Shown: piece after piece, positions 12,161 through 20,830 of the stretch
How positions within the stretch are numbered: the stretch's first letter is position 1
Layout: every line of letters starts with the position of its first letter
From: Candidatus Didemnitutus mandela
GTDB taxonomy: Bacteria > Verrucomicrobiota > Verrucomicrobiia > Opitutales > Opitutaceae
Assembly: GCA_002591725.1 (NCBI GenBank)
Contig: NJAL01000002.1
Location: 248,001-312,000 of the forward strand
DNA: 64,000 bases
Direction of reading: 5' to 3'
Program-made: the position numbers and the translations under genes
Notes under the pieces: generated by a model
Database searches by the model: none
What the model was told of the DNA's origin: nothing
The model's input: only the letters and a program-made list of their open reading frames with translations

Positions 12161-13100
12161 GTGCCACGTGTTCGTAAGCTACGTTCGCAAGATCTGCGAC
12201 AGTAAGGTTTACGCTTCACGACCACTGAGACCTACGTAGCTCGAAAATAAATCCGCGAAACGCGTTCCAGTGGGTAGCAACAACCTAATCGAAAAACAGT
12301 ATCGCCGCATATTAGCTCAGTCCGCCATGGCTACAGTCTAAGAAATATGTCGCCCCATACCAGCGACAAAAAGGTGTTGCTTGCGCCAAACCCCGCCAGC
12401 TGTTCGCTGTGTCGGTGCTACACGAGTGCGTCCATACCGCCATAAATGAACAGCGTCAGCAAAAAACCGTGTAGAGTTAGCTCCTACACGCTTGCTGAAT
12501 CGTAAAACACGACTGTTCAGGCGCCATCAAGCACCCCGCCGAGAAGCTACCGCATGGGCCTCACAAAATTCAAGGCATTATCCGCACACGCGATTGATCA
12601 GATAAATTTCATTTTGTCGGTCGTATAGATAGCCAATGTCCTCCTAGCAATGGCAGGATCGAGTGCCGTAGCCGGCCGCCACCGAAAATTGTCCTCCGGA
12701 AGAACATCAAAACAAAATAAACCGGAACAGATCGACACCAAGCTCCGCCGCCTTGCTCCAGCGAGGGAAATTCCAACACGAGCTGATAGTCGACCGTCGT
12801 CACGGTACAGCCACGCGATATAAAGCGGCTGTTTCGCTCCGCGAACGCCATCCAAGCCGACGTGAATTACAATGATGCAAGTGTGACGTTGGGCTTTTCT
12901 GAACCAGATAATAATAAATCTAGCCGCAGCTTCCATCCTGCCAAATGGAAATACGAAATATGGATAGACGTGTTTAACAAAAGAAACACGTACTTCACGG
13001 GAATGGAAATAAAAATGCGACCACAAAAATGTTCGGCATACGTTCATCATTTCATTAAATCGCCTAAGCAGGGCCTCCTAAAAACGTCTACAGCCTCCCG
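12161..13100. other. no intact gene; one possible cysteine synthase scrap
   Basis: Nothing intact. Near 12521-12585 (plus) the frame reads HPAEKLPHGPHKIQGI, and GPHKIQG is the strongly conserved cysteine synthase loop normally preceded by EPA-S. The flanks do not align convincingly, so this may be a heavily eroded second cysK copy or chance. The rest (12600-13100) shows no family. Confidence 0.3.
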
Positions 13101-13104
13101 CCAC

Positions 13105-13530
13105 CGCGCTAGCAGCGACGCAACCCGACCGTGACCAAGATCGGGCGGCTCGACAAGGATACAGTAATTTGTTGCCCATCTGTTACCCTTGACCGACCAG
13201 AGCAAACCAGTGTATTGTCTCGCTTCACAAAATAAAAGTCCCGAAAAATTACAGCGCCACGGACAACGTCGATCTGCGACCGAAAAAGGCCAAGCGCTTC
13301 GACAGCAAAAAATTGCTGTTCATGGGCGAGAACAGACAGGGCACGCCAGAAAAGTTGCAATTTGAAATCGCGCTGACCGAAAGCCGCTGCCACCAGATAC
13401 GCCGCACGTCTCCCATGCCAAAGCTGTAAAAGCAATCACGCTCCACCACGACCCGCCCAGGCCACCTCGCTCCTGGCCAGCAGTACAATCTTCCTCTAGA
13501 CCAATTTTCCGCATGAATTCCCTCCGCTCC
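13105..13530 (+). pseudogene. rRNA small-subunit-type pseudouridine synthase (RsuA/RluB family) remnant
   Basis: Reading through three frames gives the catalytic motif TKIGRLDKDT near 13127 (family: GRLDxDTSGLLLLT), with the catalytic Asp preserved. Then come KIKVPKNYSATDNVDL near 13228 (KYKVPKxY), KKLLFMGENRQG, and IALTESRCHQIRR near 13370 (LTEGRYHQVRRM). A tail follows like the GL-LGDLAPGQYR end. The N-terminal S4 domain is not readable. Frameshifts occur between each segment. The enzyme would have isomerised a uridine in ribosomal RNA. Loss of non-essential rRNA modification enzymes is common in reduced genomes. I judge this identification strong because three ordered motifs agree. Confidence 0.78.
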
Positions 13531-14884
13531 CACCGGAGTCCACGAACCCCCCCTCAGTCTCGGCCAGGAGCAACCCGACTCCGCCTGTGCCAGAAACGGC
13601 AGTCTAAACGAAGTCCTTTTCCCGCAAATTCAACCGCCAGCTCGATACGCTCGAGCTCGTGAAACTCCGTTTCACATCCTGACAGGACCACCCTGTGATC
13701 GCCGATCTCTGCGATCAGATCGGCGCCCCAGCGACAACTGATCGAAACTGCTCCCAGCCTAGGCCAGTTTAGTAACTCCAGAAAAAGCAACGCTGCGCCC
13801 ACCAGCCTCCGTTAGAACGCTGTTTCATATAACGCTCGCCTATCTCGGCTGAAACGATGTCTTCATAACGTTCTAGCTTAAAGGCTTTAGGATTTTCAAA
13901 GCTATCGGCCAAGGCAGCGCGAAGCTCGACGAAGTGCAGCGGAAAATTTTTCAACGCCACGCACACCCCGGAAAGTTTTCCCGCCATTGGCAACTGGGTC
14001 GCCGCCACGCCTAGGCCCGGCAACAATACCAAGACTGCGATTCAAACAGTGTTGACGCGCCATACAAAAATTTTCCGAAAAAGCCGCTAAAAAATAGACA
14101 TGTGGAGCTAGTGGCCACCGTCAATATCGATATTCCCTCCCTCGTAAGCGCGCTCGGCTCCAAATCAAAATACAACTAGCTTCGTATCGAACACTGCTTT
14201 GCAGATCGCGTGGGCGAGCAGCGCGCACTCACATCGATGTTTTTTACGATGCCGGTAGGACATTGTAAGCATGCAAACACAACACATGTCTCAAGGCACT
14301 CGCTCCATATTCGCAACCGTACCGCATACGCGCGTTGTACGCTCTTTTTTGTCAACAAATAATTATTTATCAATTATTTAAAATTTCTTACATAACACAC
14401 AGAAGATGCACAAAAGATGAACAAGACCGACAGCAAGGGGACGGAACACCACGGCGATTTTAGAACTATTCGTGGCGACAGCAGGTTCGATTGTCATAGG
14501 AACCGCCAGTATGCACGAGCTAAAATCTTAAAAAACGCTTAATCACGTGCAAAAGGTATTTAAATATCGCACTATATAGTACCATTTTCGCCATTGGAGC
14601 CACACGGACAAATCGGACTTTGCAATACTGGTGGTATTAAAGGAAGAGCCGATTTCTCCCGAGCGTTGAGAATTTACCTAACGGTTCGTGGTTGCGACGA
14701 TTAACACCACAGCAGCCATCGACCGCGCCGAAGGGTTCTCTTAGCGCACAAAACTGAAGAAGCAAACCAAACAATTGTGCCCAGCTGTGCCAGCGCGCCA
14801 CCAAATACAGCCAAGACACTGAGTAAGGCGTTTTTCGGTGAAGAAGGCGTTGACGGTCTATTAGAACTGGAGAAAACATGTTCC
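13531..14884. other. no intact gene; unrecognised remnants
   Basis: The minus strand at 13554-14032 contains coherent-looking fragments (MVLLPGLGVAAT, FERYxDIVSAEIGERY-like) but no family could be fixed. 14040-14884 is AT-rich and shows no gene, apart from the likely ribosome site just before 14885. Confidence 0.4.
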
Positions 14885-15577
14885 ATGTTCATAATTCTCG
14901 GAACCGACGGAAAGGAGTACGGACCAGTCGAAACCTATCGCGTGCATGAGTGGATCGCCGACAGCCGGGCCAATCTGGAAACGAGAGCGCGCCGGGACAG
15001 CGAGACAGAATGGAAGACCTTGGGCAATTTTCCCGAATTTAAGGCCCCCCCCGCCGCAGCCACCTCAGCCGTCATGCCGGACGTGGCGAAGCCGTCGCCA
15101 GCTGTAAAGCTGGAGCCAGCCGATCACATCATTCGTCTCACTGCGGCTCTTTTTGATTTGACTTTTAGTGTGCTGTGCATCGCCCCGAGCTGGCTTATGG
15201 TCGGCACGAACACGCTGTTAGCAATCCTGCAAGGCAAAGAGCAATTTGACAAGCTGGGGACCGCGCAATCAGGCGCTGGATTGGTATTAGTGGGCGTCGA
15301 TATCCTACTGGTGATTACCGTTCAAACGATTCTTCTCACGATGCGCGGACAGAGCCTTGGTAAACTTTGTCTTAAGATCCGCATCGTGCGTTTGATCGAC
15401 GAAGGCCCCCCAGGCTTCATTCACGCAGTTCTCCTCCGCTGGTGGCTGATTTCGCTGTTGAGCGTAGTGCCATTTGTCGGTCGGTTCTTCCCAATCGTAA
15501 ACGTCTGTTTCATCTTCCGCACCGACCGCCGCTGTATTCACGACCTGATTGCGGGAACGAAGGTCGTGAAAGCCTAA
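14885..15577 (+). CDS. GYF_2 / RDD-domain membrane protein
   Basis: The 230-residue protein opens with a GYF_2-like domain (MFIILGTDGKEYGPVETYRV, residues 1-55), then a Pro/Ala linker. An RDD family membrane domain occupies about 80-230, with hydrophobic segments near 90-115, 125-150 and 190-215. The RDD-type Asp occurs in TAALFDLTFSV and the loop signature in LGKLCLKIRIV. The ATG at 14885 is preceded at a slightly long spacing by ggag (14869-14872); the upstream open frame to 14777 lacks homology. RDD proteins are integral inner-membrane proteins of mostly unknown transport or accessory function. The gene converges on the decayed DoxX gene to its right. Confidence 0.85.
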   Translation: MFIILGTDGKEYGPVETYRVHEWIADSRANLETRARRDSETEWKTLGNFPEFKAPPAAATSAVMPDVAKPSPAVKLEPADHIIRLTAALFDLTFSVLCIAPSWLMVGTNTLLAILQGKEQFDKLGTAQSGAGLVLVGVDILLVITVQTILLTMRGQSLGKLCLKIRIVRLIDEGPPGFIHAVLLRWWLISLLSVVPFVGRFFPIVNVCFIFRTDRRCIHDLIAGTKVVKA

Positions 15578-15607
15578 ACGGGCCGATACTGAGCCAGAGC
15601 TAGATCT

Positions 15608-16058
15608 TCACCGATTTACCAACCAACACGGCATCAAGCAGGGATTTCCTGGGCTCAACGTAAGAACCAGCGCAGCAACCGGAAGAAAAAACGGTGCCAC
15701 ATCGGTGAATTTGTCAGTGCTGCTGAGAATCGTGTACAACAGTTCGTTTTTCGCAATTACGTATGCCACGGTCATTGTAAAAGTGATCCGATAGAGGGGC
15801 GAGGCGTACCATAGAGCCCGAGCCGCAAGAGCGGCGCCGCCCAGACACTCAGCAGAACCGGCCGCGATCGCATTCAGTCTTGGCACCGGCAGGTTGAAGC
15901 TCGTAAAGAAGGCCATAGTATTTTTGAGGTATCTGAGCTTTCCCCAGCTGGACTGCATTAAGGACCAACCACACCAGAAATGAAACGCAAAAAGAAACGG
16001 CTACTGGCAGATACAAGGCAAACGGATCGAATTTATCGAGCAATACGGAAAGTTTCAT
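15608..16058 (-). pseudogene. DoxX-family membrane protein remnant (fourth gene of the RiPP operon)
   Basis: The ATG at 16058 starts MKLSVLLDKFDPFALYL with a hydrophobic helix. A frameshift near 15930 moves the rest into another frame, which reads FFTSFNLPVPRLNAIAAGSA then ECLGGAALAARAL and ends FLPVAALVLTLSPGN. These match DoxX helices (FFASLGIPFPELNAYLAGATEL; PF-LLAAL-L--GPG). DoxX proteins are four-helix membrane proteins. In hvfABCD, gigABCD and bufferin operons a DoxX protein follows the DUF692 and DUF2063 genes. The same order here, on the same strand and directly downstream of them, marks it as the membrane component of that pathway. It is disabled by at least one frameshift. Confidence 0.8.
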
Positions 16059-16149
16059 GGGAGATGTGAGGAGCAGAAAACGGGGTTCGTCCGGTTTTTT
16101 TGCACCGAAAAAACCAGCCCAAGACCCATCGATATTACAAAACTAACTT

Positions 16150-16770
16150 TTAGCTTTTTCGGACCAGCTCTTGCACGAACGGAGAAATGGCAGCGACCCG
16201 CTTATAACAAATTGTATTGCCGATCGTGTACATGATAGAATTGTAGAGTAGGTATATGCGATTGCAAAAAGCAAAACTTTTCTCTCGCCGCAGATTTCAG
16301 GCCGCCATTCGGCATATTTCTAGCATCAGCGCAAAGCGCGCTGCGTTTCATCGCCACATTGAAACCGCCGAACGCGCAATCGAGATCGAACAACGCAAAG
16401 TAGGGTTCAAACCAGATCCAAAGGTTCGCTAGATTGGTGCTTTTTAGTTTCTCCGCAGTTAATATCGTTTGCTTCTATCTATCGAAGACGACGATCTGCA
16501 CCCAATCGAACAACATCATCTGGCATACTTCGTGTGCACCTCAGTCCTTCGCAGATGAAGCGCCTGAAGTGCGCCAAGAAACTGAGCAGCGTGTAAGACA
16601 CCGACTGGTATTTCGTGAGATAAATCTCGGCCAGCTGCATGAATTTCCGTTCGCAAATTCAGCGCACAGGTCGGGACAATCGTAGTAAACGTCTTCAAAC
16701 ACACGAAATCAGTAACACCGCTAGTAAGTCTCGACCAGCTCAAGCGTCGTAAAACGGTTGTTTGGCTTCA
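16150..16770 (-). pseudogene. DUF2063 (HvfC/BufC-type RiPP partner) remnant
   Basis: On the minus strand, frames near 16720-16560 give FRVFEDVYYDCPDLCAEF, then FMQLAEIYLTKYQSVSYTL and FLAHFRRFI. These fit the DUF2063 pattern (ED-P-L---LG--F--LA-AYL--HPS-SFTLR-LG--F--FL). Near 16393 the C-terminal domain reads FDLDCAFGGFNVAMKRSA, then FYHVHDRQYNLL, corresponding to FDLDYAV-AF-VAMK---- and the YYRP-D--EY-LL end. Stops and frame changes separate the pieces. In related RiPP systems (MbnC, HvfC, BufC) this protein binds the precursor and works with the DUF692 iron oxidase. It lies between that gene and the DoxX gene, as expected. Confidence 0.68.
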
Positions 16771-16849
16771 CGAGCTGTGCAGCCACATCAGCGGTGCAGC
16801 AACCGCTGCATCCATATAAATATGCAGTGTGCGCGAGGCGGCACTAAGC

Positions 16850-17686
16850 GGACATAAAACCACAGTTCAAAACACATGCTGCAGTCCCTTCAGGCGCCTC
16901 AACCGAAGCCGGTCTAGTCGGGCCGCAAGCTTCCTCCTTTTCGCAGCTCGGCTCGTTTAGTTGGTGCATGGAGCCTACTTTGGGCTTTTGTTTTTCGCTT
17001 CGAAAGGATAGGAGTTTTTCGTCCAATTCGAGGAGGGTAGAATACGCATAAAGTTTCCACACCGAATTAAGCCCAAAGCGGTCGTGCATGTTCCCCAGAT
17101 GTGTTTCTGAACCTTCGTGTATCTGGCGAATACGCATCTGCGCGACGAAGCGATGCTGGATGTTTCTCACATCGAAAAGAACTCCGCAGCCAGAGCTTCT
17201 GACACCCCCTTGAGGAATTTCCGCTCTATCTATTTTCGGAAGCGTAAAACTTGACGGAGTTACTAACGTTTTCGAAGCAGATGGTGATTTCGAAGGAATC
17301 GCGAACCTGGCAGGTTTTTTCGGCAGTGCGCTTTCGCCGCCGCAAACGTATAAGGCATCCGCAGGAGGTCGCGAAAAAACGTTCCATTTACGTTGCCTCA
17401 ACAAATATGACAGGAAAACATAGGATATGTTCGCACACGCCAGCCAACGCAAGTGGTCGCAACCGAGCGAATCGGCGGAGTCGATACGCCACGCTGGACT
17501 ACGCGATATTGCTCGAGTATTTGATCCAGCATATCAAGCGGGCGGCTAGGGTCGAGCATGAAGTTCTCGGAAATGATATCGAACCATCCGCAACGGTCTT
17601 CTTCGAGAGAATATGCTGATAATCGAGAACCAGGAGGCCGATCACCATGCCACAGTTGGTCTGGACGTTGAAGGTGTTAACAGCCA
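16850..17686 (-). pseudogene. DUF692 multinuclear non-haem iron oxidase (MbnB/HvfB/BufB-type) remnant
   Basis: An ATG at 17686 starts a frame with GMVIGLLVLDYQHILSKK (family: GIGLR--HY--IL---P). Then frames shift to WFDIISENFMLDPSRPLDML and LDQILEQYRVVQ, the DUF692 signature WFEVISENFM---G-P---LD-I-E-YPVVLHG. Further on come LRMPYTFAAAKAH, CGVLFDVRNIQ (CG-LLDVNN), IRQIHEGSETH (IGQIHLAGH) and VWKLYAYSTLLELDEKLLSF (VW-LYA---------LLEWD--IPSF). The metal-binding pattern is partly retained: E of ISENF, D and N of the DVNN motif (N lost), and H of QIH. These TIM-barrel enzymes use two or three irons to convert peptide cysteines into oxazolone/thioamide, thiooxazole and related groups. At least four frameshifts make the gene dead. 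Confidence 0.85.
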
Positions 17687-17741
17687 TAATAAGATAAGAG
17701 AATTGAGCTGAAGCCTTTGTAAACGCAAAACTAATGAGAGC

Positions 17742-17775
17742 GAAAAGATGGCCGGCTCTTGAAGCGCTGGCCATC
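17742..17775 (-). terminator. hairpin plus T-run between precursor and DUF692 gene (attenuator-like)
   Basis: On the minus strand gatggcc and ggccatc (7-bp perfect arms; 17769-17775 and 17747-17753) are followed by tttt. It sits in the 140-bp gap after the precursor stop and before the DUF692 start. That is where a partial terminator would let the precursor be made in excess of its enzymes. Confidence 0.6.
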
Positions 17776-17825
17776 CTCAAAACAAAACGACTGTATTTGG
17801 AGAGGTAGTCGGGGACGGATCAACT

Positions 17826-18013
17826 ACTTCTTGTCGTCCTTTTTCTTGCCCATCGCCGCGTAGCCACCCTTGCATTTGCAGCCGTGCTTCGTGTCTTTTT
17901 TTTACCATCGCGCACAGCGGCCTGGCCAACGTTGATGGCAGCGGACGTCTTCGAAACCAGGGTGGCCGGCAAGCGCAACGACGGTGAGGAGGGCTCTGGA
18001 TTGATTTATTCAT
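17826..18013 (-). pseudogene. small secreted Cys/Lys-rich peptide, putative RiPP precursor (frameshifted)
   Basis: From the ATG at 18013 the frame reads MNKS. One frame over it continues ALLTVVALAG, and the third frame gives PATLVSKTSAAINVGQAAV. After a run of eight A (17897-17904 on the plus strand as T) the sequence reads KDTKHGCKCKGGYAAMG and KKKDDKK before a stop at 17826. Together this is a roughly 60-residue peptide with a signal peptide (KxxLLTVVALAGxLVSxTSA) and a short Lys-rich core holding two cysteines (GCKCKGG). Position directly upstream of a DUF692 gene, size and export signal are those of HvfA/BufA-type precursors. The core is unlike the EGKCG repeats or four-Cys bufferins I know, so it may be a distinct subclass. 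Three frame changes are needed, so the reconstruction is an inference. Confidence 0.5.
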
Positions 18014-18199: not shown

Positions 18200-19000
18200 T
18201 CCTCGCCACTCTCACTAATCGAACATAACGACTCAGCACCGGACTAGCAGCAAAAACATAGACTTTCTTCTCCGTTCAAACGATTCTATCTACCATCAAC
18301 TCGCCGCCGTCGAAGCAGCAGAGGTTATCGAGACACTAGCGCCCACCAGATCGGAATACGCAGTGTCGAGCCAATAAAGCTCGACCTGTCGAGAGCGAGT
18401 TAAGCAATAGGTTAACAACGCGATTCGCAGCCGCAAAGGCGCCTGGCAACGCGGGATCATTCACAGTCGCAATTTCCTCATCGCCACACATCGTGCACTG
18501 GTTATACCGTCACTTCAGAGTCAAATGGCGACAAAAACTCCACCATCCCCCGCCCAACCGCACCAATTCCTAGTAGAAACACGCCTTGCCCAATTTCGTG
18601 AAGCGATCGTTCAGGTAGCGCCAACTCCGTGCAGACTGTCCTTGTTGCGCAATTGCAAATGCAAGCTGCGCGTCAGCACAAGCATGCTAGCAATCATCTG
18701 ATGGGTGATCAGACACACGGGTCGGCGAATACCTGCGAAGCAATTGTAGCAACGACACCGCGCACTTTAATCGCCTCCCAAAAATTGTCGTAGTCGTAAG
18801 TTTTGTAACCAGCCGTCGGCAGCGAAACACAGTGGAGTTTATCGAAACGCATGACATCGGCCACGTCTAGCTAACCATAGGAAACACAGAATCCACAGCA
18901 CTCTGCATCAAAACCGACAGGGTCAAAAACTGGACTAGACGAGGTTATATCCAATTTTTTAACTCGCGTTGCAACAGCTCGAGTACATCGGGAAAGGAGT
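18200..19000 (-). pseudogene. D-isomer-specific 2-hydroxyacid dehydrogenase remnant
   Basis: Minus-strand frames give HCVSLPTAGYKTYDYDNFWE near 18830, then VRGVVATI and SQVFADP. These fit V-LPTAGYD--D---F--RGV-ATN-S-VFAEP. Near 18600 LPERSLHEIG then FLLGIGAVGRGMVEFLSPFD follow, giving the NAD-binding GxGxxG motif. The C-terminal catalytic Arg/Glu/His region is not readable. Stops and frame changes are frequent. The enzyme would reduce 2-keto acids or oxidise D-2-hydroxy acids; exact substrate is unknown. It lies just upstream of the RiPP operon on the same strand but belongs to a different module. Confidence 0.68.
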
Positions 19001-19189
19001 TCTTAATTGCTTCAGATCGTCTTCACAGACGCAGTGTCTGGCTCGCTTCCTTCAGCTAAAACGAAAAGCCCTCAAAGCAGAGTCGCAAGTAGAATAAATC
19101 GGAAATTTCCTGGGCAACGCTTACCAGATTTTTGTGCAATCCGCCGGTTTTTGACACATAGGGCCGCCTTTCCTAGATACCAAAAGAAT

Positions 19190-20830
19190 CTTAGAACTCA
19201 TGCACACTCACGAGCGCCCCGATAGCCCGGAAGGCGCCATCGGGCACACGCCGACCTGTAGTCCACACGGAGGCGAGCCTCGTTGTCACGAATATTTGTC
19301 TGCCATACTTGGGACAAAAAATTAAGGAACACTGTTCCGGTGTACACCTTGCACTTCTTGCCTTGCAACGACCGTCCAAAGGTCTCTTAGGCCACGATCC
19401 AAGCTTCCGAAATCAGCGGTGTTCTCGCTGAGCATCAGATTACCGTTTACGTGTGCACTCCGGGCAGCACATCGTAGGAGCTAAACTTGTCGGCCACTTT
19501 CTGGGCGTACGTAATAAGTTCAGCAGCGTCCTACCCAGTCCGTCAATCGAACAGATTCCAATTTGAATCGTAGTGACGGCCTTGGTATCGAAGCTGTGCA
19601 TAGATCCCATGTCAGATGACAGCGCGGATGCAAAATGCCAGCAGGGAAATTGATATTGTTCTGCGTGGGATCGAAGTAGGCGCTTACCATCCGGTGGCAT
19701 CATCACTCATTCGCTCTTGTCGACGAGCTGGCTGAGTTTCGCGAGGCAGGAACAGACATCAAAATCGGTCGGCACACGCACATTGGCGAAATACGAATCG
19801 AGTCGGCGATCGACCACCAAATTCGCTGCGCTGCCAGCGCAGCTTCACACGGGCGTACGACTGCAATACAATGCCGTAGAAACGGAAGACTTTGTTCTCA
19901 AACAGAGCTGCAAGATGCAGATCGAAAATGCATAACACTTATTATAACGCAAATTTGGTTTTCTATTCCACGATGGAATGAAACTTCAGCTGCTACTGCA
20001 ACCCTGAGAAAAATGCCGGCTGCCCGACGATGATTTCTTCCACCGTCGCATCGCCAATACAGTGACTCAGAAGGTGGAGGATAAGCGGAAAGTCCGGAAA
20101 CATCCCAACGATGCTTTCCCGACCGGAATCTTGTTGTACTTAAAGGAGAAAAACGTGCAGCTTGATGAAATACTTTTGGCCCTGCGGCCAGCGCTTTTCA
20201 GTGGCGAACACCGTCTCAGCCTCGGCCTGAACATCTACCAGCTTGTCGCCCGCGAGGGCAAACAGCTTCGCCACGTGCACGAGAAGCACGGCACGTTCTT
20301 TTTTATAACGGTTTGAAAAGTAATAACCTTTAGTCGAAAGATTCAACCCGCCTTTGCACGCACTGAATGCGTTCACCATTTTCCCGGAAACATCAACATA
20401 TAGTCAAAAAAAATAGCAGCAACGCTCCTGTTGCTCAACTGAGCAAGTGTTCACGCAAGACTCTCAGGCAAGTTGAAAGCTGCCATCTGATCGAGATCCG
20501 TCCGTACCAGATTAAAGACCGGCTGCATCGATCGGCCGGCCTTCTGGTCAACAAACCCGACTCGTACGAGCAGGCAGCGGCTGTCTTAAACGCGCTTTTG
20601 AGGGCCATCTGGCTATGTTGCTCGAGTTTGTTTAAAGCTCCATAGCGAGACCTGTCGGCAGGAACCGGGTTTCTTATCTGCCAGTTGCCGAAAACGCAGC
20701 GCGCAAAGCCGGTATCCAGGGGGATAGACCGGTCTTTACAGTGGACGTTGAGGCGTAGCCGGCTGCAGCGCTGGCTAATCGCACCCGCAACAACAGGTTG
20801 GCACCAGCCATTCAAAGACATACTCAAAAG
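19190..20830 (-). pseudogene. M13-family zinc metallopeptidase (PepO/neprilysin-like) remnant
   Basis: Long ordered matches run across this span. They begin with the N-terminal DTGFARCVFGNWQIRNPVPA (family: DDFFRYANGNWL-R-PIPAD) and RYGALNKLEQHS, then GGLNLSTKGYYF and VHVAKLFALAGD. VEEIIVGQPAFFSGL and VSAYFDPTQNNINFPAGIL (family VNAYYDP--N-I-FPAGIL) follow, then VNGNLMLSENTADFGSL (VNG-LTLGENIAD-GGL) and FLNFLSQVWQTNI (FFL-WAQVWR). The zinc motif HExxH region is eroded: the frame reads MGSMHSFD where GHExTHxFD is expected, so the first His and Glu are gone. Several frameshifts and stops confirm loss of function. These enzymes cut short peptides outside the cytoplasm. Confidence 0.88.

Follow-up and report, generated by a model that had tools for sequence, protein, structure and literature searches.

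The minus strand of the window, by which we mean the whole 64,000-nucleotide stretch of DNA that was analysed, carries from position 18013 to about 15606 the eroded remnants of a four-gene operon, in the order Cys/Lys-rich peptide, MNIO (formerly DUF692), DUF2063 partner, and DoxX. The presence of this relic operon, noted in a preliminary description of the sequence, is confirmed. It is very likely that the locus is a dead operon of the bufferin type, inherited from a free-living Opitutaceae ancestor, and its intact form probably works like the published bufferin clusters; the gene content, the gene order, the damage, and the intact relatives with the same neighbours are direct observations. 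The locus is plainly a fossil pathway of known type and not a new system, and it represents ordinary genome reduction acting on a stress-response cluster. The case documents how an Opitutaceae symbiont lost a probable periplasmic metal-buffering RiPP, with intact copies from the same genus as the yardstick.

Table 1. Features of the relic operon and its immediate neighbours in the window
Feature	Coordinates	Strand	Evidence and state
RDD-family gene	14885..15577	+	Pfam RDD 3.9e-15; weak GYF_2 match; open
DoxX relic	15606..16147	-	Pfam, profile; C-terminal part still an open frame, 15608-15958
DUF2063 partner relic	16181..16941	-	tblastn, profile; stops and frame changes
MNIO (DUF692, PF05114) relic	16874..17687	-	PF05114, tblastn, profile; several frames and a stop
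Precursor peptide relic	17824..18013	-	Profile alignment, seven family and six same-genus precursors
D-2-hydroxyacid dehydrogenase relic	18339..19020	-	tblastn pieces

Identification of the Relic Operon

All open reading frames of at least 70 amino acids from seven intact Opitutaceae loci (L010-L016) were used as tblastn queries against the window. On the minus strand they recover, in order, pieces of the MNIO in three frames (17699-16874), the DUF2063 partner (16810-16181), and DoxX (16039-15635). Frame-tolerant alignment to profiles of the seven relatives gives scores of 426, 172, and 235 for the MNIO, DUF2063, and DoxX relics, respectively, compared with maxima of 47, 35, and 33 obtained with the same aligner on 20 dinucleotide shuffles each, and with 33, 24, and 25 on the opposite strand. 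Shuffles and opposite strand together rule out chance similarity as the source of these matches. The two methods agree on the order of these three genes on one strand and on the families proposed in the preliminary description, and the similarity to DUF692, DUF2063, and DoxX that it had predicted is found for all three, in that order.

The MNIO score covers 17687-17003, and a PF05114 search of the whole symbiont genome returns one match, at 17604-17317 of the window (E 1.7e-8), which lies above the curated cut-off and has a stop inside. The DUF2063 relic, placed at 16941-16304 by the same-genus profile, is identified by alignment to relatives, because PF09836 (DUF2063) has no match in the symbiont genome (0/1 genome). 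Judged by that alignment (172 vs 35), a DUF2063 partner (PME type 1) follows the MNIO; in the relatives, Pfam confirms PF09836 in both loci examined for it and DoxX in the single locus examined. The DoxX relic is the least damaged of the four genes: its open piece matches the Pfam DoxX model above the cut-off (E 2.5e-6), while the profile score covers 16058-15612 and the same-genus profile extends over 16147-15606.

The number of frame changes varies with the penalty, for which four settings were used; several in each gene is the appropriate reading, and DoxX is the least certain case. The MNIO relic has 3-10 frame changes and one stop, the DUF2063 relic 2-5 frame changes and 3-4 stops, and the DoxX relic five frame changes at three penalties and none at the harshest, where the alignment is shortened to residues 20-137.

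The Precursor Relic

The putative peptide gene is identified more weakly than the other three, yet above chance, through two short ends, namely the start with the signal-peptide region (18013-17965) and a C-terminal Lys/Cys-rich piece (17889-17827). The start coincides with position 18013, where the preliminary description had placed the end of the feature. With the seven family precursors, the score of the full profile is reached by 1, 0, and 0 of 100 shuffles for three reference rows, and that of a profile of the first 30 residues by 0 of 200 for each of the three rows. With the six same-genus precursors, none of 200 shuffles reaches the scores of the full, first-30, or last-40 profiles for any of the three reference rows; the best full score is 64.3, and no shuffle exceeds 42.7.

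A precursor gene with Cys codons is thus recognizable in the relic immediately ahead of the MNIO, its ends beating 200 of 200 shuffles, and an intact precursor occupies this place in all seven family loci and all six same-genus loci. Whereas 13 intact relatives have 6-11 Cys, the C-terminal piece of the relic holds two Cys codons, and the greater part of the Cys core is therefore gone. The operon had been called complete, which is right solely for its gene content.

Decay and the Possibility of Sequencing Error

Conservation was scored at aligned positions where all seven relatives share one residue. There the MNIO relic retains 92 of 154 (177 invariant overall), the DUF2063 relic 23 of 41 (69 overall), and the DoxX relic 30 of 45 (45 overall). 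Leaving out the intact relatives one at a time gives 93-99%, 87-99%, and 82-100% kept for the three proteins, respectively. At two positions where all seven MNIO relatives have histidine, the relic has another residue; these histidines are presumably iron ligands, as in MbnB-type enzymes.

It is highly improbable that the operon works and seems broken through errors in sequencing or assembly. Indel errors would yield frame changes like those seen, and DoxX is nearly open; such errors do not, however, produce substitutions, and 62 of the 154 aligned invariant residues of the MNIO relic are substituted. Furthermore, the peptide gene is without most of its repeat, the published assembly was built from Illumina reads (PMC5698493), and the symbiont's COX1 gene is open, with 274 of 281 invariant residues retained. 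For this control, ten COX1 copies from seven relatives were reduced by three, keeping for each relative the copy nearest that of the symbiont. On the COX1 result, sequencing error was rejected as the cause of the damage.

A second working copy of the operon in the symbiont assembly was likewise rejected: PF05114 finds the relic alone, PF09836 finds nothing, and BufA2 gives one chance-level match (E 0.16) and none at the place of the peptide relic. The decay of the locus and its location in a reduced verrucomicrobial symbiont, both stated in the preliminary description, are borne out. The claim that the ancestor had the pathway is supported; that the lineage is still losing it is not, because these searches make the pathway look already lost. 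With all four genes damaged and no second copy found, the pathway should no longer operate in the symbiont.

Intact Relatives and Origin

The intact operons anticipated in related Opitutales genomes do exist. Among 177 genomes of the order, PF05114 has matches in nine, the symbiont included. The eight others were taken, and the profiles use the seven loci of the same family; the remaining genome (G018, locus L017), which belongs to another family and is divergent, was left out of them. The match of the L010 enzyme to PF05114 has an E value of 2.6e-109. MNIO genes are common in the Opitutaceae, with a match in 58 of 200 family genomes, near full length in 55. Within the genus, six of the nine other genomes have an MNIO match and three have none, so that its presence there is patchy. 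All six same-genus loci contain the MNIO, the DUF2063 partner, and a Cys-repeat precursor, and three have an adjoining DoxX.

The surroundings of the operon recur in several relatives. The dehydrogenase relic adjoins it upstream, and the same neighbour (Pfam PF02826 in the L016 relative) occurs in four of the six same-genus loci, in two of them about 4 kb off. The RDD gene flanks it downstream in convergent orientation and is common to L013-L016 and to three of the six same-genus loci. The same-genus locus L120 reads dehydrogenase, precursor, MNIO, DUF2063, DoxX, RDD, which is the order of the window, and L013 has both neighbours too. In single-sequence alignments the MNIO relic is closest to L013, L014, and L012 and not to the same-genus enzymes; the case for descent therefore relies on genomic position instead of a tree. 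In this ranking, the L116 entry for DUF2063 was disregarded as an artefact, because the reading frame taken starts upstream of the MNIO gene.

More eroded genes surround the operon, as matches to L016 proteins reveal: an RNA pseudouridine synthase (13071-13513), an RsgA-type GTPase (13836-14777), and an M13 peptidase (19237-20755).

Precursor Type and Comparison with Known Systems

An NCBIfam scan of 13 distinct intact precursors (L011, L014, L117, and L121 were left out) gives BufA2 as the best meaningful match for most family precursors. None of the 13 reaches the BufA2 cut-off of 60 bits; the best scores 48.6 bits, and one has no match of any kind. For two array precursors, collagen-like models outscore BufA2. 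Since such models score as high or higher, the weak precursor matches may stem from low complexity.

The same-genus precursors comprise four uninterrupted CKGK(D/E) hexapeptide arrays and two interrupted ones with 6-10 Cys. Upstream of the MNIO in L116-L119, the precursors are uninterrupted arrays of CKGKDG type that score, where scanned, far under the BufA2 cut-off. A six-Cys pattern of our own fits one of the six same-genus precursors. No description of hexapeptide arrays was found in the sections of PMC12452194 covered, and its supplementary tables may list them. The arrays offer a tangible starting point for RiPP mining, and the intact Opitutaceae operons are more interesting than the relic itself.

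The preliminary description had compared the architecture with the hvfABCD, gigABCD, and bufferin loci. The gene set and order are indeed of bufferin type, but the precursors of the relatives resemble BufA2 and not HvfA. We take HvfABCD to be the Oxazolin/Buf_EGKCG cluster; its EGKCG motif is absent from all 13 intact precursors, and an HvfA/oxazolin identity was rejected on this count, although that cluster has the same four-gene core (PMC12452194). The closest published counterpart, Buf2/BufA2 (Buf_6/12Cys; PMC12452194), shares the gene set and order precursor, MNIO, DUF2063, DoxX, and the precursors of many intact relatives likewise have Cys at six-residue steps; it differs in that the relatives' precursors fall under its cut-off and the window genes are all damaged. 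The GIG operon (gold-induced genes) of Legionella and Cupriavidus is metal-responsive and of related make-up, a likeness drawn purely from published descriptions (PMC5413113, PMC12452194), and GIG-type operons are counted among the bufferin clusters (PMC12452194).

The enzymes MbnB (methanobactin) and TglH (pearlin) belong to the same Pfam family, PF05114. Among solved structures, the intact L010 enzyme matches chains of MbnB together with a DUF692 protein, which we assume to be TglH (8hci, 8hi7, 8hi8). Its best solved match is 3bww, with E 7.8e-50 compared with 1.8e-7 for MbnB, and a methanobactin identity was rejected on this comparison. The precursors of the MbnB and TglH systems are described as being without Sec signal peptides (PMC12452194).

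Proposed Function of the Intact Cluster

Bufferins are MNIO-modified, Sec-exported peptides that bind copper where tested (PMC12452194). By analogy, the relatives would make a Cys-repeat peptide, whose signal peptides we judged by eye and which would be exported through Sec. The DUF2063 partner would present the peptide to the MNIO, and this multi-iron enzyme would oxidize its cysteines, as in the published bufferins. On the same model, the exported product would act in the periplasm by binding copper or a comparable metal, and DoxX may act as an accessory membrane protein.

It is also conceivable, though unlikely, that the intact cluster is related not to copper but to another metal or to oxidative or sulphur stress. 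Other metals and, for DoxX, other stresses are allowed in the survey of the MNIO landscape (PMC12452194), and a related operon responds to gold as well as copper (PMC5413113). The nearest named precursor family, on the other hand, is BufA2, annotated as a copper-type metallophore, though the match is under its cut-off.

Loss of the Operon and a Possible Link to Copper Defence

'Candidatus Didemnitutus mandela' is the mandelalide-making symbiont of a Lissoclinum ascidian and is described as losing genes (PMC5698493). The genome searched here has 2,171,216 bases in 10 contigs, and the published assembly is given as 2.17 Mbp, 10 contigs, and 51.93% G+C (PMC5698493). This genome is already published as strongly eroded (PMC5698493), and losing a widespread stress-response cluster is no surprise there. 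Life inside the host may have relaxed the need for the pathway.

A somewhat doubtful extension of this reading is that losing the operon belongs to a broader abandonment of copper defence, with the host shielding the symbiont from free copper. The copper-ATPase model has no match in the symbiont genome, while seven of seven comparators match, six of them above the cut-off. Nor does the general P-type ATPase domain have a match there, though it is found in 192 of the 200 family genomes and in each of the 14 control genomes. The RND exporters are reduced to one piece with five stops (G000:C3:113928-114461) and one match under the cut-off; two open COX1-family genes are retained. General gene loss, however, explains these absences equally well: Opitutus sp. 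GAS368 has homologs for just 780 of the 2,864 predicted genes (PMC5698493), which makes the loss of any dispensable gene set the default. Moreover, seven other family genomes are equally without a P-type ATPase match, and the completeness of the symbiont genome is 74.5% as computed here and 94.2% in PMC5698493. The absent exporters and the kept COX1 agree with a life free of copper stress, but are weak evidence of any specific cause in view of the heavy overall gene loss. If the absence of metal exporters holds in a closed genome, the symbiont would offer a natural experiment in living without copper defence.

A bolder proposal, which we put forward tentatively, is that the intact Opitutaceae operons are an undescribed sub-type of MNIO metallophore, in which a signal peptide is followed by a variable CKGKDG-like hexapeptide array instead of a Buf1, Buf2, or EGKCG core, forming a copper sponge of adjustable length, and that the symbiont discarded this sponge along with its P-type ATPases and RND exporters but retained a copper-dependent respiratory enzyme. 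Were this true, the host would be shielding the symbiont from free copper.

The main text of PMC5698493 never mentions copper, DUF692, RiPP, ATPase, efflux, or methanobactin. Our literature search found nothing that joins Verrucomicrobia with MNIO, or MNIO with symbiont pseudogenes; the discussion of DUF692 in PMC8692599 concerns a gammaproteobacterial order.

Loci Retrieved with an Opitutaceae MNIO

A search with a single Opitutaceae MNIO confirmed 564 loci, of which 80 named ones were kept; these reveal close relatives in Verrucomicrobiota and Acidobacteriota. Of these 80, among which six end early downstream and three upstream, 75 have a precursor candidate by our pattern, 78 a DUF2063 gene, 49 a DoxX gene, and 47 all four. 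The six-Cys pattern fits 62 of the 75 candidates and is loose enough there to accept plain arrays.

Sigma factors are reported in Buf1 and not in Buf2 clusters (PMC12452194); a sigma-factor match lies near four of the 80 named loci. A sigma-70 type gene follows DoxX in the BufA2-like operon of L010, and such genes are also seen at L030, L037, L038, and L092.

Five loci (L059, L067, L082, L087, and L096) have four-Cys precursor candidates that apparently lack the two central Cys of the usual six-Cys pattern; the titled records among them are from Acidobacteriota, such as Granulicella and Edaphobacter.
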